From a virus: a stretch of DNA of 20,774 bases. The notes below the pieces were generated by a model. That model saw only the letters and a program-made list of their open reading frames with translations, was not told the DNA's origin and did no database searches. Within the stretch, counting starts at the first letter, position 1; each line of letters opens with the position of its first letter. The translations under genes were made by a program, and so were the position numbers. The stretch is from the IMG/VR virus record IMGVR_UViG_3300025141_000969, positions 1 to 20,774 of that record. One strand, written 5' to 3'. Positions 8,994 through 19,162 of the stretch are shown here, piece after piece.

Positions 8994-9236
8994 TTATCCT
9001 ATTGGGTATACTATTCTATTACTATTATTTTCTAAATATACATAATATTCTACATCATCTTTTGTATTGTTGTCAACATATGTCTTTGCTAATTTAAAAA
9101 TTGTATATTTTTCTTCTTCCCAAGTTTTATTTGTTTTTTTATTACGACCTATAATAATATATCTCCCTTCTTGTAGATTCTCTATCACTTCTTTTTTATA
9201 AAACCCACCACCCCCTCTTCTTTTTTTAAGTGGCAT
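8994..9236 (-). CDS. Small basic protein, unknown function
   Basis: From the ATG at 9236 (80 residues) it begins with a very basic, glycine-rich stretch (KKRRGGGGFYKK, 4-15). Alternating segments that look like beta strands follow (GRYIIIGRN, EEKYTIFKLAKTYV, DVEYYVYLEN). The ATG has GAGGA about five bases upstream, whereas the in-frame ATG at 9263 has no ribosome site. The gene overlaps the end of the sigma factor gene by 11 bases, so both are likely made together. The basic start suits nucleic acid or RNA polymerase contact, but that is inference only. Confidence 0.7.
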   Translation of the reverse strand: MPLKKRRGGGGFYKKEVIENLQEGRYIIIGRNKKTNKTWEEEKYTIFKLAKTYVDNNTKDDVEYYVYLENNSNRIVYPIG

Positions 9237-9762
9237 CAACTTCCTCTTTATATAAACATTCAAATTTCTTTCTAATTTTATTTCTTACTCTATAAGCAGA
9301 TTCTTCTAAATCTTCACTAATTTCTGTCATTGTTAAATCTTCAAATCTTAATTCTATATATCTTTTTTCTTTTTCGGTTAATTTTAAATTGTCTAAAACA
9401 TCAAATATTTCAATTTCGTCTATGAAAGCTGAAGCTTTTAAATCTTCTAAAGCTTTGGAAACTTTAAGAGGTACATATTCTGATTCACTATATACAATTA
9501 ATTTATCCATACTAGTAGGGTGAAGCCTTTTCTGTGCTTGAGATATAAAAGTTCTAATAGTGTTTATCATAGCTGTATGTAAATATGTATGGAAAGATAC
9601 TTTTTTATTTGGATCAAATTTTTTGGCAGCTTTTACAATTACTATTCTAAGTTCTTGAACTAAATCTTCTTTATCCATGCCTTGAATTGAAGTAGTAGCT
9701 AAAATTCTATGTATTTTAGGTTCCCATTGTTCGATTAATTGATTTGTAACTTCCATTTTCAT
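9226..9762 (-). CDS. Sigma-70-like RNA polymerase sigma factor
   Basis: From the ATG at 9762 (178 residues) it has a region 2-like block: MDKEDLVQELRIVIVKAAKKF (29-49) with the conserved D-L-x-Q-E, then FHTYLHTAMINTIRTFISQAQ (57-77). A region 4-like block follows, LKLTEKEKRYIELRF and MTEISEDLEESAYRVRNKIRKKF (126-167), the helix-turn-helix that reads -35 elements. It lacks regions 1.1 and 3, so it is ECF/SigF-sized or like phage late sigmas. It should redirect host RNA polymerase to viral promoters. AGGAG stands eight bases before this ATG. The gene overlaps the upstream zinc-finger gene by 47 bases. The bacterial-type factor is the best single sign of a bacterial host. Confidence 0.9.
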   Translation of the reverse strand: MKMEVTNQLIEQWEPKIHRILATTSIQGMDKEDLVQELRIVIVKAAKKFDPNKKVSFHTYLHTAMINTIRTFISQAQKRLHPTSMDKLIVYSESEYVPLKVSKALEDLKASAFIDEIEIFDVLDNLKLTEKEKRYIELRFEDLTMTEISEDLEESAYRVRNKIRKKFECLYKEEVDAT

Positions 9763-10201
9763 CTTTAAATCTCCTATCTTTTGTTTCACAAATTTTTCTA
9801 CAATATGCTTTTTCAGAGCCTAAATTATGAGCTTGTATTATTTGAGACCTCCATTTTATAAAAGGCTTTCCTTCTCTTGGGCATTTCTTATAAGAACAAG
9901 TTAATTCTATCTTATAATAATTTGTTTTACAAGTAATAGAACAGAATGTTTTCTCAGCTTCTCTCTCGTTATAATGATTTTTTCTTTTAATCGTCATAAC
10001 TAACTCTTTACATTTAGCACAATATACATGTCTACTGTTTAATCCACTTGGAATTTTAGTAATTACTCCATTTTCTTTTAAGACTTTATGTACATAGCTT
10101 CTAGTGTAACCCATCCTTTTGGCTATCTCACTAGTACGCATAAAAGGATTTTGCGTTTTATAGCGTATAACTTTAGTTTTTGTAGGTATTCTTCTAGGCA
10201 T
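9716..10201 (-). CDS. Helix-turn-helix and double zinc-finger DNA-binding protein
   Basis: The 161-residue basic protein starts with a helix-turn-helix (about 19-45; RTSEIAKRMGYTRSYVHKVLKENG has the usual A-x3-G-x5-V spacing). It then has two cysteine quartets: Cys61, 64, 87, 91 and Cys102, 107, 134, 138. Each is two Cys pairs about 23-27 residues apart, as in treble-clef zinc fingers. No HNH catalytic histidines stand out. It is likely a sequence-specific regulator. The 47-base overlap with the sigma factor gene suggests that the two are coexpressed and may act together, perhaps as activator and sigma. AAAGG precedes the start. It is the first gene after the tail hub-like protein, at the border of structural and DNA genes. 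Confidence 0.8.
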   Translation of the reverse strand: MPRRIPTKTKVIRYKTQNPFMRTSEIAKRMGYTRSYVHKVLKENGVITKIPSGLNSRHVYCAKCKELVMTIKRKNHYNEREAEKTFCSITCKTNYYKIELTCSYKKCPREGKPFIKWRSQIIQAHNLGSEKAYCRKICETKDRRFKDENGSYKSINRTMGT

Positions 10202-10209
10202 TTAAACCT

Positions 10210-13200
10210 TTAAAAATTCATTAAATGAGTATGTTCTGCATCAGTTAATAATCTAGCGTCGTAATAAGTAGGAAGTAGGGAATTTGTAGCAAAATTATAT
10301 ACTTGAGCTACATCTCCTTGATTAGCCTGATCTTGGTTGGCTGCTCCTCCTTTTATAATGGCTATCACTACTGAATCTTGAGGAAAGTCTGTAGATGTCC
10401 AATTTATTATAGTTTGTACTTGAAATTCATTTGGATGTTCATCATTCCAAAATAATATATAATGACTATTTAATCCCATATCAGCATTCAATATATCGGC
10501 ATCTTTAGTTGAACCTGCTCTAATTACATATTCTTCTCCTGTATCTAATATTAATGTTCTAGAAGCTGCTGATTGTTCTTTATGTGGTTGGCTTGAACTA
10601 TATCCCCAACGAATTTCTTTAGCTCTTTGAACAAAAACAGCTGCATCATCTACATGAGTTGAACTTCCTTGCAAAGCTCTAACTACTGTAAGTTCATTAC
10701 TTGAAACACTTGATACTAACATGGTCTCACTATTAGAAGCATCAGATACACATAGTAATTGTCCTGCAGAAAAATGAGCTCCATTATCTACATCAAATGT
10801 TGTGCCTCCTGTACCTGTTATTGCCCCATTTAATAATGATCCTGAAGGAGCTTGATTTGAAATATACATTACTTCATTAGTATCTTTTCCTAAAGCAAAT
10901 TTCTGTTGTGACCTATCTCTTTTAATATGATAAATACTTCTTTCTACAATTTCATTAGCTAAAAGTTCAGTTGTAATAGGATATTTTAATATGTCTGATG
11001 TTTCCTTTTTAATAGTTTCAAATTCTGTTTTTAAAACACTATTTAAATCGCTAAAAGTTAAACTAATGATTAAGTGATCATCATTTATATTAGCTAAATC
11101 ATTATCTATTCTTACTATATCTCCTGATCTAATAGGTACATATATTTTTATAAATTGTCCTGCTGCTAATGCTGTATCATCTGCCCACTCTTCAGTTGTT
11201 CTTCCATTTATTTGAATTCCCTGAATTGATCCTGAAGCAATAACTGCTTTATTTGTTCTATCATCTAAAATATCTGATATATACGCATGAGGCCATACCT
11301 CTTTTATTACAGCTCCTATTAATTGCTCTTCATCTGGAGTATAGGTGTGGGCTTCATTTCTTTGAACTCCTGTAAAAGTATTAGATGTTTTACCACTATA
11401 ATCAAATAATTCATTTCCTATTTGTAGGGTTCCTGAAGAGGGAAAATTTGTAGTAGCATTAGCGTCTATTATACCTGATCCTGTCATAGCAGTAGAAGAG
11501 GATATAGTAGTTCTTACAGTAGTTTGAGCTGGGTCTTTAGTAAAGTTAATATCTTCATATTTTTCTATAGCCATTCCTGTCTTTATTCCCCATTTTCTAG
11601 GGTCTATATAATGTGCTGAATTAGATAATAAAGCCACATCTACTCCATGACCTGCTGAAAGATTACTAGTTTTTCCAACTACAGTAGAATATGGATATTT
11701 AGCTATAGAGAAAAGCCCATTAAGACTATTTGTTTGATGACTATTAATTAAAGACGCTGTAATAGCCTCTCTTATATCTTTTTTATTATTTATACCTGTT
11801 AATCTAACTCTTTTTACTCTAGGCATTCCATATTTTTCTCTTAGTCTACCTTCACTTGGTTTCACATAAGAAGTTATTGCCGAAGTATTTCCTACCATTT
11901 TAGTTAATAAATATATTTTAGTATCATCGTCATGAGTAGCTGCTACTGTAGAGCCTACTCCTCTTGTACAACCTGTTAAATTTTCACTACTTATACCTGT
12001 ATAAGTTATGATTTCATCGTCTATCATTATAGCCCCAGCACTTGGTAAGTCACTAGCATCATCTAAAGTTATAGTAGTCTCACTATCATCTAAATCTTCG
12101 TTTAATTGTTGTTGTATGGGTGGAAAAAAGATTAAATCTACTCTAGAACCTGCTGCATGTTCAGTTGCATTAGTACCATTAGCCCCTCTTTTAGCTACTG
12201 TATATGTTCTAGTACTTAAAGAACTTACAATTATATCTTCTTTTCCTATTCTTAACATACAATGTAAGTTTGGAAAATCATCTCCATCATATAAAGTAGC
12301 GTCTTTTAATACTACCGAACTAGCACTTGACGTTAAATCAGTATTTAAAGTTGTTGATACTCTAGGTATATCTGAAATTAATACATATCCATTAGTTGCT
12401 GCTGTTATACTTGTTTGATGTTGTACTCTACATATTTCATTTGTAGCCGATCCTAAATATCCCCCAAGTCCTGATGAAGCAGGGGATTGAATTATTTCCC
12501 ATTTTTTCACACTAATAAAATTACTTCCATTATCATAAGATAATTTTAAAAATTCAGGGGCTTTCTTTATAGTAATTGTAGCATTATCTGAATGAGTTGC
12601 AGCAGAAGTATTATTGTAATTTCTTACTACAGTTAATGATGCATTAACACTAGTTATTAACATCTCTTCATTATCAATTTTAATAACATCTCCTGCCTGA
12701 AAAGCATCTGCCCTATCTACAGTTACGCCTGTTTCACTAGAATCTAAGTCTTCGGCTAATAAAGTACCACCTGCACTTATAAATTCGTCTCCTTCAAATA
12801 ATAAATCTCTCCAATGATATTCTCCACTAATCTCTCTTGCATATAATAACTCAAAAGTTTTATGTTTTGTATGTCCTGCTGGAATAGAATCATCTGAAAG
12901 GCCGGTTTCTGGATAATATACAACCCCTTCTGTAAACAATTCATTATTTTCTTCTGTAAAAGAGAAACTTGGGTACATTAAAGCTTTTGCTTTTGATACA
13001 TAATAAGCAGTTTTATTACTTAAATGGGCAGCTGCTGTAGTTCCTACTATATAAACTACTGTATTATCGTCATGAGCTACAGCTGTAGTACCATCGTATG
13101 CTCTAGTTACAGTTAAAGTGTTTGTAGATATGCCTGTTACAAACATTCTTTCATCTTTAACTTGAATTACATTTCCTTGAGCAAAATGACTTCCATCATC

Positions 13201-14523
13201 TACGTCTATTCCTGTTTCTGAATCATCTAAAGCTTCGGCTAATAAGGAACCTGAAGCTGTTTTAGGTATGGAATCTGCTCCTGAACCTCTTACACAATTA
13301 GATAGAGTTGTAGGTATAGCTTTATCATGTGATCCATATTCAATATATTCACTATCTATATAAATTACACCCCCATCACTTGGAAAAGTAAGAGCATTAT
13401 CTAATACAATTGTAGTATCATTATAAGCAATGTTTCCTAATACTTTAGCCCCTATATTTTGATTCTGACTATTATGTTCCGTAGCTACATAACCTGAATC
13501 TGCTGTATAAGCTATAGTAAGTCCTTTAGCTTTTAATGGAGCCCCACCTGAATCTAATGAAGGTCTAGTAAATTTTTGAAAATAATTCATAGTTTGTGGG
13601 GGAGCAGGAACATTTTGCTGTGCTGTTTTTACATTAGGGTCTACATAATAATTAAATCCATGCTTTCCTTCAAATAACAATTTAACTACATCATTATCAC
13701 TATGTGAAGCTGCTGTAGTATTATCCGAAGGTCTTACACAACCTGTAAATGTTGTACCTAGAGTAAGCCCTGTATATTCAATTATTTCTGTTCCTATTAA
13801 TATTTTCCCAGCTGTTGGGAATCCTGAAGTGTCTTCTACTACAATACTAGTTACAGAATCATTAATTCCAGCTGTTAAAGCTGTTGTATGTGAATGTGGC
13901 TCTGATTCAGCTAGTTTAGAAATAGAATTTATTAAATTCCTTCCATCTTTAGTTAAATCTATTTTAGAAGTTGATCCCATAAGGGTAGGAGATTTAGTAA
14001 ATTTAGCACTAGAATTTTTTACAAATTCATGATCACTATTTATTGAATCTTCAATATCAATAATTCCAGCATTTCTAATTCCTCTAGTTATTATATCTGA
14101 TCTTTTAGTTAAATTATCTGAAAATCCTTCTAAATTATCGGCAGTATGTCTCCAAGAATCTGTTTGAAAATCTTGAAGCTGTCGTAAAGCATCTGAACAA
14201 GTAAGCATTAATTCACTACCTGTTGTTTCACTTGCTATTTCTTCAACATTATATATTTTACCTGCAAATAATATTGAATGTGTTTCAGTATCGGTTATCC
14301 TTACATCTATAAATTCAGTAAAAACCCCATTAAAATAGCCCTTTCTATTAGCTTCTGTTGCAGAATAGATATTAGTAGGATTATCTTGTATTCTTACTAC
14401 AGCTACTCTAGATTGTCCTATTAAATCTGTTATAATACATCCTAGATAAGCCTCTTGACCTTCTCTAAGGGGTCGTTTCCATCTAGACCCATCCCAATAT
14501 TGAAATTTAGTTATTTGTGCCAT
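10210..14523 (-). CDS. Very large tail hub/tail-tip protein with eight repeated beta modules
   Basis: The 1437-residue protein begins with a domain (about 1-125) ending in LFAGKIYNVEEI and LMLTCSDALRQL. This resembles the first domain of tail hub proteins of the gp27/Tal type. A second hub-like block lies at about 1075-1170 (PIRSGDIVRID, DDHLIISLTFSD). Between and after them are eight modules of about 70 residues with the pattern DSETG.TVDD...F..GDVI.I..E.M.VT......LTV.R...GT.AA.H. The rest is hydrophilic sequence. The C-terminus (1303-1437) has no repeat and ends TDAEHTHLMNF. It is likely the end of the tail, with the modules added to contact the host. The start overlaps the upstream stop as TAATG. 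No peptidase or lysozyme motif was found. Confidence 0.88.
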   Translation of the reverse strand: MAQITKFQYWDGSRWKRPLREGQEAYLGCIITDLIGQSRVAVVRIQDNPTNIYSATEANRKGYFNGVFTEFIDVRITDTETHSILFAGKIYNVEEIASETTGSELMLTCSDALRQLQDFQTDSWRHTADNLEGFSDNLTKRSDIITRGIRNAGIIDIEDSINSDHEFVKNSSAKFTKSPTLMGSTSKIDLTKDGRNLINSISKLAESEPHSHTTALTAGINDSVTSIVVEDTSGFPTAGKILIGTEIIEYTGLTLGTTFTGCVRPSDNTTAASHSDNDVVKLLFEGKHGFNYYVDPNVKTAQQNVPAPPQTMNYFQKFTRPSLDSGGAPLKAKGLTIAYTADSGYVATEHNSQNQNIGAKVLGNIAYNDTTIVLDNALTFPSDGGVIYIDSEYIEYGSHDKAIPTTLSNCVRGSGADSIPKTASGSLLAEALDDSETGIDVDDGSHFAQGNVIQVKDERMFVTGISTNTLTVTRAYDGTTAVAHDDNTVVYIVGTTAAAHLSNKTAYYVSKAKALMYPSFSFTEENNELFTEGVVYYPETGLSDDSIPAGHTKHKTFELLYAREISGEYHWRDLLFEGDEFISAGGTLLAEDLDSSETGVTVDRADAFQAGDVIKIDNEEMLITSVNASLTVVRNYNNTSAATHSDNATITIKKAPEFLKLSYDNGSNFISVKKWEIIQSPASSGLGGYLGSATNEICRVQHQTSITAATNGYVLISDIPRVSTTLNTDLTSSASSVVLKDATLYDGDDFPNLHCMLRIGKEDIIVSSLSTRTYTVAKRGANGTNATEHAAGSRVDLIFFPPIQQQLNEDLDDSETTITLDDASDLPSAGAIMIDDEIITYTGISSENLTGCTRGVGSTVAATHDDDTKIYLLTKMVGNTSAITSYVKPSEGRLREKYGMPRVKRVRLTGINNKKDIREAITASLINSHQTNSLNGLFSIAKYPYSTVVGKTSNLSAGHGVDVALLSNSAHYIDPRKWGIKTGMAIEKYEDINFTKDPAQTTVRTTISSSTAMTGSGIIDANATTNFPSSGTLQIGNELFDYSGKTSNTFTGVQRNEAHTYTPDEEQLIGAVIKEVWPHAYISDILDDRTNKAVIASGSIQGIQINGRTTEEWADDTALAAGQFIKIYVPIRSGDIVRIDNDLANINDDHLIISLTFSDLNSVLKTEFETIKKETSDILKYPITTELLANEIVERSIYHIKRDRSQQKFALGKDTNEVMYISNQAPSGSLLNGAITGTGGTTFDVDNGAHFSAGQLLCVSDASNSETMLVSSVSSNELTVVRALQGSSTHVDDAAVFVQRAKEIRWGYSSSQPHKEQSAASRTLILDTGEEYVIRAGSTKDADILNADMGLNSHYILFWNDEHPNEFQVQTIINWTSTDFPQDSVVIAIIKGGAANQDQANQGDVAQVYNFATNSLLPTYYDARLLTDAEHTHLMNF
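10627..10842 (-). repeat. Tail hub beta module 8
   Basis: Residues 1228-1299. GSLLNGAITG, TTFDVDNGAHFSAGQLLCV, ETMLVSSVSSNELTVVRALQGSSTHVDD. It is a closely related copy with the AHF and LTV.R strands kept. Confidence 0.75.
11311..11526 (-). repeat. Tail hub beta module 7
   Basis: Residues 1000-1071. ATTNFPSSGTLQIGNELFDYSG and FTGVQRNEAHTYTPDEEQLIG form a divergent copy just before the second hub-like block. Confidence 0.65.
11905..12117 (-). repeat. Tail hub beta module 6
   Basis: Residues 803-873. NEDLDDSETTITLDDAS, IMIDDEIITYTG and LTGCTRGVGSTVAATHDDD. The second-strand variant IITYTG is shared with modules 1 and 7. Confidence 0.8.
12127..12357 (-). repeat. Tail hub beta module 5
   Basis: Residues 723-799. 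A longer and divergent copy: DLTSSASSVVLKDATL, LRIGKEDIIVSS, TYTVAKRGANGTNATEH. Confidence 0.7.
12565..12771 (-). repeat. Tail hub beta module 4
   Basis: Residues 585-653. GGTLLAEDLDSSETGVTVD, FQAGDVIKIDNEEMLIT and SLTVVRNYNNTSAATHSDN are closely related to module 3. Confidence 0.85.
13045..13248 (-). repeat. Tail hub beta module 3
   Basis: Residues 426-493, the closest match to the module inserted in the tail tube protein: by hand count about 41 of 69 aligned positions are identical. It shares GSLLAE, DVDDG, AHDDN and the LTV.R strand. Confidence 0.85.
13246..13452 (-). repeat. Tail hub beta module 2
   Basis: Residues 358-426. It keeps the TTIVLDNALTFP and VIYIDSEYIEYG strands and the NCVRGSGADSIP end. 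The histidine of the usual AxxH end is missing. Confidence 0.65.
13675..13887 (-). repeat. Tail hub beta module 1
   Basis: Residues 213-283. It reads DSVTSIVVEDTSGFP...ILIGTEIIEYTG...TGCVRPSDNTTAASHSD, with strand pattern, turn and conserved H274. It is divergent from the best-matched modules. Confidence 0.75.
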
Positions 14524-15218: not shown

Positions 15219-16625
15219 TTATTTCTCCTTAAAATTCCTTAAATCTGATCCTGATAAGGTAGACGATGATATTTCTGCAAGAGCTTTATCCCCCATTTTT
15301 TTATTAGTTATATCATCATAATATCCTGCTGTCCCTGCAGTTCCTCCTCCCCCTATAATGTTTTTAACTACAGCCCCAAGTTCTGGACCCTCTAAAAGAT
15401 TTTCAAGGTTTGCTAAGAGTGTTGTTGGTTTACTAACAATCTTAATTACTTTTTGTATAGCCGATTTTAATCCTACTGCTCCAACCTTTTCATCAAATAT
15501 TTTTGATGCTGCATTTCCTGCTACTTCTATTGATAGTTGGCCCGGTGTTTCTCCATCCATATGAAAACCTGAGTATATATCTTTTACTAGTTCCGATCCC
15601 ATTTTTAAATTATCCATTACATCTTTCGCTGTTTCTGGTAGTTCCATAAATCCATGAGGTAATTTCTTGTCACCTAATTTTAAATTTACAAAATCTGGAC
15701 TTACCTGCAAATTCTCTATAGACATAGCATGGGAACCCTCTAATATTTTGTTAGCCTTTTGAAGATGTTCTTGTTGTTTAGATGCTGATGTTTTTGCCAT
15801 TGGATTTGCCGAGGCTCCAAAAAAAGGAATTCTACGAGCTTTTAATTCCCATCCCATTATATTAAAACCGGGAAAATCAAAACCAGATTTTTCTTTTATA
15901 GTCTTCCACGTTTTTTTTACCCAATTCCATATAGGATCAACTACTTTGGATGTAAAAAGACCAAACATATATTTTGCATATTTCCAATATTCATTTAATA
16001 AATGTTTTCCCAATCCTATAATACCATCTTTGTTCAATACATCAGCTAAATTTTTAAACCAATCTATTGTATTAAATATGATAGTCATAAATTTAGGAAT
16101 TCCTCTTGCAAACCATTCAAACAGTTTTGGAATTTTGTCTAAAAATGTCAGAGCAAAATCAAGACCTTTACCTACTTTTCTAGCCATTGCTATACCTTTA
16201 GAAGCAGCTTCATTAATAACTTTAGCTAAACGTGGAGCCAATGGGGCAAGGATTGTATCAATCATTGCTCCTGCGATTTGGAAGAATGATCCTGCTGTAG
16301 CAGTAAAAATTTGAGACTGTCTTATTAAAGCTCCAACTGAAATACCTCCAAACAAGCCTTTATAAGTTGATCTTCCAAGTTTTTGGAAGAACTTGCCTAT
16401 TTTAGGTAGAAAATTTCTAGGATTCGAGGCGTCTTTTATCTGTCCAACTTTTGTATTTAGTTGTTTCATGCCTGCATCTATTGCAGCCATACCCATAGTT
16501 CCAAGACCTGTAGGACCAAATCCACCTGTAGGAATACCCCCCTTTCCTTGAACATGCCCCTGTGAAGCTATAGCTGCAGAGGTATCCATCGCTATTTTAA
16601 TTGTTGTTGGTTCATGGCTTGCCAT
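15219..16625 (-). CDS. Tail tape measure protein (short)
   Basis: The 468-residue product lies just after the frameshifted chaperone, the regular place of the tape measure. It has a Gly-rich start, a hydrophobic stretch at about 90-137 (GLFGGISVGALIRQSQIF, then GSFFQIAGAMIDTILAPLAP) and further aromatic-hydrophobic helices to about 240. The family guides tail length and enters the host envelope on injection. By the usual rule of about 1.5 angstrom per residue, 468 residues suggest a tail near 70 nm. There is no lytic or peptidase motif. GAGGA stands upstream of the ATG, 12 bases after the chaperone extension stop. The short length and lack of tandem repeats are the main limits on this call. 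Confidence 0.82.
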   Translation of the reverse strand: MASHEPTTIKIAMDTSAAIASQGHVQGKGGIPTGGFGPTGLGTMGMAAIDAGMKQLNTKVGQIKDASNPRNFLPKIGKFFQKLGRSTYKGLFGGISVGALIRQSQIFTATAGSFFQIAGAMIDTILAPLAPRLAKVINEAASKGIAMARKVGKGLDFALTFLDKIPKLFEWFARGIPKFMTIIFNTIDWFKNLADVLNKDGIIGLGKHLLNEYWKYAKYMFGLFTSKVVDPIWNWVKKTWKTIKEKSGFDFPGFNIMGWELKARRIPFFGASANPMAKTSASKQQEHLQKANKILEGSHAMSIENLQVSPDFVNLKLGDKKLPHGFMELPETAKDVMDNLKMGSELVKDIYSGFHMDGETPGQLSIEVAGNAASKIFDEKVGAVGLKSAIQKVIKIVSKPTTLLANLENLLEGPELGAVVKNIIGGGGTAGTAGYYDDITNKKMGDKALAEISSSTLSGSDLRNFKEK

Positions 16626-16637
16626 TTATATTCCTCA

Positions 16638-16847
16638 TTAAAAATTATTTTTAAGAGATTCTTCGTTTTCTCTATTTTTTATAAGTTGATCTATTAGAAG
16701 TAAAGATTCTACTTCTTCTGTAGAAAGCTCATCTATTTTATCATAAGCTATTCCTAAACCTAAAAGTCTTACTTTAATCATCCAATAACTTAAAAAAATA
16801 GTTTCTTGTAAATTATTCTTTTTAGCTTTTAAGTTCCATTCGATTCT
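16638..16847 (-). CDS. Tail assembly chaperone, -1 frameshift extension (long form)
   Basis: The -1 frame of the chaperone gene is open from the end of an A9 run to a TAA at 16638-16640, giving 69 codons that begin RIEWNLKAKK and end ESLKNNF. No ATG with a ribosome site starts it; the only internal ATG (in SYWMIK) lacks one. Slippage at the A9 run after the 121st codon gives a 190-residue long form. This is the G/GT arrangement of lambda and many siphoviruses, where the frameshift product helps load tail tube subunits on the tape measure. The extension has the Trp/Leu-rich helical character of other GT tails. It fills what would otherwise be a gap between chaperone and tape measure. Transcriptional slippage would give the same result. 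Confidence 0.85.
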   Translation of the reverse strand, partial: RIEWNLKAKKNNLQETIFLSYWMIKVRLLGLGIAYDKIDELSTEEVESLLLIDQLIKNRENEESLKNNF

Positions 16848-17209
16848 TTTTTTTTATCTTCTGGAATTGTTGAGTCTTCAAAAGCTATTGGAACTATTTT
16901 TTCTAGAGCAGAACCTAATCTACCATCTATAGAAATTAAAAAAGTTTCTGTTGTTTTGCCCCAAGGAGCATCTACAATAATTTCTTTTAAAATTTCTCTC
17001 ATATATCCTTCAGTATTAAAGGAAGAAATTCCATCTGTAGACCATTTAACATATTTGGCAACAATTTGATTCTTTCTACTCCAAGATAGATTTTTTACTT
17101 TTACTTTAAACTCTTCTCCTGTTTCTTCTATTTTTACTGTTTTATTTAATAAGTCTGTGCTTATTACATACTTTTGAAAATCAAAAGTAGATTTAACTTC
17201 ACTTGCCAT
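16829..17209 (-). CDS. Tail assembly chaperone, short form
   Basis: The 126-residue protein lies between tube and tape measure, as expected of a tail assembly chaperone. It opens with FDFQKYVISTDLLNKTVKI and GEEFKVKVKNLSWSRKNQIVA-type strands, then has a helical part (YMREILKEIIVDAPWG, 69-84). An acidic Lys-rich end (PEDKKKESNGT) holds the slip site. Such proteins bind the tape measure and tube subunits and are absent from the virion. The start has AAGGAG five bases upstream. The zero frame stops at TAA, only five codons after the A9 run's GAA codon. Order and the frameshift are stronger evidence than sequence. Confidence 0.85.
   Translation of the reverse strand: MASEVKSTFDFQKYVISTDLLNKTVKIEETGEEFKVKVKNLSWSRKNQIVAKYVKWSTDGISSFNTEGYMREILKEIIVDAPWGKTTETFLISIDGRLGSALEKIVPIAFEDSTIPEDKKKESNGT
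16847..16855 (-). promoter_or_regulatory. A9 slippery site for programmed frameshift
   Basis: Nine A residues encode three lysines in the zero frame (GAT AAA AAA AAA GAA), and a -1 slip enters the extension frame. TTCCA upstream and TGGAA downstream could pair across the run. No clear pseudoknot or dnaX-like Shine-Dalgarno stimulator was seen. Confidence 0.8.
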
Positions 17210-17218
17210 TCTTTCTCC

Positions 17219-19162
17219 TTATGGATAAAGGGGAACGCTGTCCTTTATCTGAATCTTCATATTTCTAAAAATTATACTAGCATCTACTTCAAGAGCCCCA
17301 CTTCCACCTACATTATGAGTAGCTGATGTTATAAAAGCTCCTGATTCATTTCCTCCTTCAGCTGCAGTTCCATCTGATGGAATAGTCATAGTTATAGTAT
17401 CATTACTCCCTCTAGTAAAGGTTAAAGTAATTGCAAATCCTTTATTTGAGGCAATGTTTGCTCCTGCATAATCTCCTTCCATTAATAACTCTTTAAACAG
17501 AGTTGAATCACTTGATGTAGCACTAACACTATCAGGTAAGGCTATCGTAGCTGACATATTATAAGTTCTAGTTCCTTCTCTAGTTTCACTCGGCCCTCTT
17601 GATAGCTTTCCATGTCTAGTATTTATATAATACTTTGGTTCTATAGAGTTGTCAATACTTATACTAAAATCTCTTATTCTAGCGAATTCTGTTCCAAACA
17701 TAGAAATAGTACCTTGACTAAAGAAATAAGGGTTAGTTTTTGGATAACTTCTATCTCTTAGAGCATAGGAGTTTTCATTAGCAGCTACTGTTCCTACCAT
17801 ATCTGTATCATCTATAGTTTGGACTATAGCAGCTCCACCTGTTTTCAACCCTACCTTGATTGGAGCATTATCGTCATGTGCAACAGCTGTACTTCCTCTA
17901 TATCCTCTTTCTACAGTTAAAACATTTGCAGATATGCTTGTTACTAACATATCTTCATCATCAATTCTAATTACATCTCCTACAGCAAAATCAGTCCCAT
18001 CATCTACAGATACATCTGTTTCAGAAGAATCAAAACCTGATTCAGCTAATAAAGAGCCTGAAGTTTCATATATAGATTTCATTTGGTTATGATTCATTCC
18101 TAAAAAGGCTAGACCATCCCAACTCATAGATAACATACCTTCTTCAGAAGCTGAAATAGTTGTACTTCCTACTTTACCACCGAAATATCTTCTAATAAAA
18201 TCATTTGCTTCTGTCTCTCCACTATCTCTCATTAATACATTCCAAGATATAGTATCTAAATCTACTGTTTCAAAGATATCGTGTTGATAATATAATCCTG
18301 AAGTAGTTTCGGTTATCTCTTTAATCTGATCACTAGAACTACCTGCTGGGTGGTCAAATTGTAAAGGATAATTTAATTTAAAATAAACAGTACTTTGTAC
18401 ATCTACAAGTCTTCTTATTTCACAAATGCTTGAAGCAGTTGGACTACCTGTATAATCAATTGTAATCAAATCTCCTTCAGCTAAACTTCCAGCACTATCT
18501 ACCTTTATCCACACATCTCCTTTTTTATGATCTCCATCTAAATCGGTTACATCTGCAACTCCTCCTGAAGGTATAGAAGTTACTTTTCCTATTGGAAATC
18601 TTAATGGCCAACCATTTAATAATACAAATGATCCTATGCTTCCACTATATGCTTGAGAGCTTTTATATTGAGTATAAAAATTTCTTTTAGAGGAAGTTCC
18701 TAGTAAATATCTAGGTTCTATAGCCATTTCAGGATCAGGTACATCTACAGTTTCATACACACCGGGAATAAAAGTCATAAATTTATCGGAAGCAGTCTCT
18801 GCAGTTGCTGTTACAACAGCAATACCTGAATTATCAAGGTGAAAAAAGGCTGTCGGAGTATCTAAATGTAAAATGGTTGTACCCTCTACATATTCTACTG
18901 TTCTTATTTCAGAGTTTCTAAAAACTCCTGCCAATCCTCCACCGGTATTTATTTCCGGCCCAATTTGAATAAATTCTCCTGCAGTTATACCACTTAAAGC
19001 ATCTACTGTTATACTTCGTGATCCTGCAGGTAAACCATCTGCCATGTTTATTAAAGCAGTTCCTGTACCATCAGTAACTGAACTAGCCCCTTCAGGTATA
19101 CCACCTTGAGCTGCTTCAGTTGCAAAAGTCACAACTGCTTGATCTGCTCTGTATATTGCCAT
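17219..19162 (-). CDS. Major tail tube protein, enlarged by inserted beta modules
   Basis: This 647-residue protein has a tube-like core in segments, including IPGVYETVDVPDPEM (132-146), YKSSQAYSGSIG and NGWPLRFPIGKV (166-194). A later part (438-647) contains FARIRDFSISIDN and FAITLTFTRGSN, as in tube subunits. Between them are beta modules: one clear copy at 369-437, two looser ones at about 28-118 and 195-283. Usual tube proteins are far smaller, so the modules are probably exposed outside the tube. A sheath identity was considered and not preferred. The gene has AGGAGG six bases before the ATG and a possible -10 box upstream, which would suit high expression. Confidence 0.8.
   Translation of the reverse strand: MAIYRADQAVVTFATEAAQGGIPEGASSVTDGTGTALINMADGLPAGSRSITVDALSGITAGEFIQIGPEINTGGGLAGVFRNSEIRTVEYVEGTTILHLDTPTAFFHLDNSGIAVVTATAETASDKFMTFIPGVYETVDVPDPEMAIEPRYLLGTSSKRNFYTQYKSSQAYSGSIGSFVLLNGWPLRFPIGKVTSIPSGGVADVTDLDGDHKKGDVWIKVDSAGSLAEGDLITIDYTGSPTASSICEIRRLVDVQSTVYFKLNYPLQFDHPAGSSSDQIKEITETTSGLYYQHDIFETVDLDTISWNVLMRDSGETEANDFIRRYFGGKVGSTTISASEEGMLSMSWDGLAFLGMNHNQMKSIYETSGSLLAESGFDSSETDVSVDDGTDFAVGDVIRIDDEDMLVTSISANVLTVERGYRGSTAVAHDDNAPIKVGLKTGGAAIVQTIDDTDMVGTVAANENSYALRDRSYPKTNPYFFSQGTISMFGTEFARIRDFSISIDNSIEPKYYINTRHGKLSRGPSETREGTRTYNMSATIALPDSVSATSSDSTLFKELLMEGDYAGANIASNKGFAITLTFTRGSNDTITMTIPSDGTAAEGGNESGAFITSATHNVGGSGALEVDASIIFRNMKIQIKDSVPLYP
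17852..18058 (-). repeat. Tail tube beta module, clear copy
   Basis: Residues 369-437: GSLLAE, FDSSET, VSVDDGTDF, GDVIRIDDEDMLVTS, LTVERGY, GSTAVAHDDN. It is the same family as modules 3 and 4 of the tail hub-like protein encoded about 4.8 kb further along. Confidence 0.9.
18314..18580 (-). repeat. Tail tube beta module, loose copy
   Basis: Residues 195-283. It keeps DLITIDYTG and a VWIKVDSAGSLAEG strand pair but not the SLLAE or AHDDN ends. Membership of the family is likely but uncertain. Confidence 0.5.
18809..19081 (-). repeat. Tail tube beta module, loose copy
   Basis: Residues 28-118. SRSITVDALSGITAGEFIQIGPE matches the strand pattern, and FFHLDNSG is like the closing AxxHDDN turn; the middle is divergent. 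Confidence 0.5.

Follow-up and report, generated by a model that had tools for sequence, protein, structure and literature searches.

In phage lambda, a short protein G and its -1-extended form GT are made from one gene and act on the tape-measure protein (PMC5009743). The review that describes this also lists -1 frameshifting in HVTV-1, a haloarchaeal tailed virus of the Druskaviridae, for which a short entry and a two-piece joined frameshift chaperone entry are annotated (gp129/gp130). In HHTV-2 (Saparoviridae), the corresponding proteins are gp47 and gp48, the latter annotated as a separate frame with its own start. A prophage chaperone-type protein is also known from B. subtilis (YqbN, PDB 3klu), which we take to be a tail chaperone of the XkdN type.

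Here we analyzed a viral DNA stretch of 20,774 nucleotides, referred to as the window, and consider it highly probable that its minus-strand gene 17209..16829 encodes a G/GT tail assembly chaperone made with programmed -1 frameshifting. The relevant features are as follows.

16829..17209, minus strand: gene of a G-like tail assembly chaperone, short form of 126 aa (PHROG, tblastn, hhalign and Foldseek matches)
16847..16855, minus strand: A9 slip tract (window sequence and relatives)
16638..16853, minus strand: T-like -1 frame extension, with KK common with the heptamer and then RIEWNLK...NNF (open in 73/73 distinct sequences)
16829..16831, minus strand: zero-frame stop TAA, five codons past the heptamer (usually 1-2 in relatives)
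17219..19162, minus strand: tail tube protein gene, just upstream of the chaperone (PF18906 Phage_tube_2, E 1.3e-8)
15219..16625, minus strand: tape-measure candidate of 468 aa, just downstream of the chaperone (position and length)

With HVTV-1 this locus shares a homologous G part, the -1 shift, the gene order G, GT, tape measure, and a tape measure of similar length. However, HVTV-1 is haloarchaeal and GC-rich, and its short frame lacks a terminal poly-A site, whereas genes of the bacterial sigma-70, RecA and DnaG types are found in the window. HHTV-2 has the same gene order and provides the best annotated sequence match to both the G part and the tail tube, but its gp48 is longer than the window extension and could not be aligned with it. 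The likeness to lambda lies in the two forms derived from one gene, while no sequence similarity was detected and the slip site of the window family (A9/A7) presumably differs from that of lambda.

Several comparisons link the short form to known tail assembly chaperones. It matched the tail assembly chaperone families phrog_32593, phrog_35486 and phrog_25860 (E 7e-5 to 7e-4), HHTV-2 gp47 (tblastn E 6e-6, hhalign 97.1%) and HVTV-1 gp129 (hhalign 88.5%). An AlphaFold model of the G short form was of moderate confidence (pLDDT 67.6), and its sole credible fold match in the PDB was YqbN (Foldseek prob 0.93, E 0.11, TM about 0.46-0.49, 15% identity). Sequence searches of the PDB with both profiles returned no credible relative, and searches of G against Pfam and NCBIfam returned no chaperone match. 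A match to AcrF10 (E 0.0035, 2/18 members) was discounted as weak. The T-like extension had no match among chaperone families. T domains show little conservation from one phage group to another, and resemblance to known T domains is not a defining feature. We attribute a match of 31 extension residues to phrog_1063, a terminase small subunit family (E 0.002, 2/46 members), to chance helix similarity.

The small gene lies between the tail tube gene, which also matched phrog_290 (1e-10) and the HHTV-2 tail tube (BLASTP 4e-19), and a gene that is a tape-measure candidate by position and length only. The latter is placed like HVTV-1 gp131 (480 aa) and HHTV-2 gp49, and in sequence it matches HVTV-1 only very weakly (E 0.003). 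Between 10.2 and 20.7 kb the only large gap between listed genes is that of 203 bases at 16626-16828, the one which the earlier note had taken to be filled by the extension. Short repeated segments matching PHROGs 4406, 7578 and 8469 (of the type GSLLAE..DSSETDVSVDDGTDFAVGDVIRIDDEDMLVTSI) occur in a 1437-aa protein at 10210-14523 (minus strand) and are also inserted in the tail tube protein. A common repeat domain seems to decorate these two structural proteins.

The short frame ends with ...PEDKKKESNGT-stop, and its lysine codons are formed by the A9 run. This run is the sole A9/T9 of the window, against 3.7 expected from dinucleotide shuffles. Inside it, the in-frame heptamer A AAA AAA at 16853..16847, followed by G, is a canonical slippery heptamer, in phase and close to the end of the short frame. 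In the -1 frame, KKK is followed by RIEWNLKAKKNNLQ...LKNNF-stop, an open stretch of 69 codons with its stop codon at 16640-16638, giving a fused GT product of 190 aa (121 + 69). The +1 frame from the slip site shuts after 7 codons in the window. The earlier note had derived the end of the zero frame at 16829, the 69-codon -1 frame and the 190-residue product from the letters of the DNA, and all three agree with our reading. It had also placed the end of the -1 frame at the tape-measure gene, and indeed only 12 bases separate the -1 stop from the ATG of that gene at 16625.

Searches of IMG/VR with the short form as query brought up two close relatives: L001, which is virtually the same virus, and L002, at 80% identity. 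The A9 and the open -1 frame are present in both. Profile searches widened the set to 73 distinct sequences, i.e. the window and 72 relatives, mostly viral. The only relative from a genome collection is L027 (NZMJ01000087.1), a 9.3 kb contig of a Maricaulis MAG which may be mis-binned phage. A megablast of the right half of the window against phages gave no match, and when the A9 clade was searched for additional members, with a protein query as well as a degenerate DNA pattern, only the two contigs already known came up.

An in-phase canonical X XXY YYZ heptamer was present at the homologous place in 73/73 distinct sequences, being A AAA AAA in 70, T TTA AAA in two (L012 and L025) and A AAA AAC in one (L014). 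It sits 1-5 codons ahead of the zero-frame stop, and in every sequence the -1 frame continues for 63-88 codons beyond that stop, while the +1 frame shuts within about 20 codons in all but four of the 73. We looked in the 72 relatives for stop codons at homologous positions, the finding that the earlier note had set against the extension, and there were none; the conserved -1 frame that it had named as support was found throughout. The extensions are homologous and can be aligned from the slip site onward with a mean column identity of 40%, showing a KKR start, a near-invariant W and then LL..GI.(W/Y). Between the window and L002, dN is 0.145 and dS 0.517 in the extension (dN/dS about 0.28), a pattern close to that of the short form (dN 0.096, dS 0.311). 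On these substitution rates the extension is under purifying selection.

A downstream RNA structure accompanies the site in part of the family. A stem with co-varying arms follows it in about 20/54 non-redundant members, with stable structure 5-9 nt downstream, and the strongest values a few nt past the slip site include -24.5 (L015), -23.2 (L099) and -23.1 kcal/mol (L062). Strong stem-loops at about +6 to +60 were also seen in L009, L016, L017, L070 and others. The contribution of coding constraint was separated from that of the stem by pairing 5' arms with 3' arms from other members of the set. Native arm pairs were stronger (mean -7.71 vs -5.63 kcal/mol; 0/20,000 permutations), and two control regions showed no excess of native pairs in this test. 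Judging from its distribution on the tree, the stem was gained or lost several times. In the window the stem is weak (-5.7 kcal/mol), AU-rich and distant, starting 19 nt downstream of the site. We found no upstream Shine-Dalgarno stimulators at a consistent 8-14 nt spacing.

Several other explanations of the open -1 frame were considered. Short ORFs can stay open by chance, in which case the short form would be the sole product, but in the window alone a first-order Markov model of the region gives a 69-codon opening a probability of about 4e-4, and homologous openings in all 73 sequences together with the dN/dS leave this explanation with next to no credibility; we regard it as refuted by conservation. 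The comparison is equally decisive against the idea that the homopolymer was missequenced or misassembled and hides one unbroken frame. Homopolymers are generally error-prone, yet the same phase is seen in L001 and L002, contigs from separate metagenomes, and in all other relatives, where the run is mostly A7 and in three cases there is no long A run. We consider such an error refuted. It is somewhat less remote, though still very improbable, that the extension forms a small gene of its own, encoding 47 aa and initiated internally at ATG 16781. This codon lies in frame within the -1 ORF and is also found in L006, so that the statement in the earlier note that the -1 frame has no start of its own is not literally correct. 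However, no Shine-Dalgarno-like sequence precedes ATG 16781, while AGGAGA and GAGG precede the neighboring gene starts, and the methionine is not conserved in the alignment of relatives, where the extension is conserved from the slip site itself onward. The statement is for these reasons right in substance.

A more serious alternative concerns the agent of the shift. RNA polymerase could add one A to the A9, so that some mRNAs would encode the fusion directly, and it could do so alone or alongside ribosomal slippage in the clade of the window. In many bacterial genomes, selection against slippage becomes apparent once runs reach a length of nine (PMC1088944). In our set a run of nine was found only in the window, L005 and L006, which group together on a long branch as a single clade with good support. 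This clade is set apart by the A9, a five-codon zero-frame tail and the lack of the strong stem that many relatives have close to the site, although the tail length recurs in L071, and only there, and many A7 members also have no strong proximal stem. Due to these three features transcriptional slippage is possible in the window clade, but it is not favoured, and we assign it a small share of the probability. A run of at least nine A or T is not kept across relatives; the A run is exactly seven in 66/73 sequences, and relatives with A7, A6C or only A4 still need a -1 shift. Inside the A9, moreover, A AAA AAA G is retained in frame as an intact ribosomal heptamer, and the co-varying stem in part of the family also points to ribosomes. 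The earlier note had held ribosomal and transcriptional slippage to be both possible from the A9 tract. Both were retained here, but the heptamers of the relatives (A7, T TTA AAA and A AAA AAC) shift the balance toward the ribosome, and ribosomal slippage is taken as the mechanism of the family since the same shift is required in relatives whose heptamer is A7 or not a homopolymer.

Taken together, the site conserved in 73/73 sequences, the direction of the shift and the extension, along with family and fold evidence and gene order, support a family of G/GT tail assembly chaperones with programmed -1 frameshifting and bear out the G/GT reading of the earlier note. Under ribosomal frameshifting, most ribosomes would complete the 126-aa G form, and a minority would move back by one base on A AAA AAA G, inside the A9, to produce the 190-aa GT form carrying a T-like domain. 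If the roles are as in lambda, G would coat the tape-measure protein and the T part may recruit tail tube subunits. The site, the open and conserved extension, the purifying selection, the family membership by sequence and the gene order are seen directly in the sequences, whereas we infer the slipping, its efficiency, the role of the T part and, for the window clade, the ribosome rather than RNA polymerase as its agent.

The tail module of this virus is closest, among named viruses, to those of haloarchaeal tailed viruses, and the same virus carries a sigma-70 family gene at 9226-9789 (minus strand; PF04542, sigma-70 region 2, E 3e-14). The window also encodes a bacterial RecA and a protein with a DnaG-type zinc ribbon and Toprim. 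An archaeal host was considered since the nearest named chaperones are haloarchaeal; the sigma-70, RecA and DnaG genes point to bacteria instead and, judging from gene content, favour a bacterial host even though the tail module has haloarchaeal kin.

Recoding of this kind is textbook for tailed phages, and the window gene is a well supported but ordinary case which supplies a missing 190-aa tail protein for a group of uncultured phages. The only local twist is the small clade of the window, which combines the A9 with a longer zero-frame tail and lacks a strong stem close to the site. One unlikely but not negligible possibility is that the A7 site of the family, often followed by a stem and with the zero-frame stop one or two codons away, was rebuilt to A9 in this clade and that the G/GT balance there is set partly or wholly by transcriptional slippage; if true, the mechanism acting at a conserved recoding site would have changed. 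More broadly, the more than 70 homologous -1 sites, which vary in heptamer (A7, A9, T TTA AAA, A AAA AAC), stop distance and stem, form a natural series that may prove useful for studying how the G/GT ratio is tuned and how stems are gained and lost.
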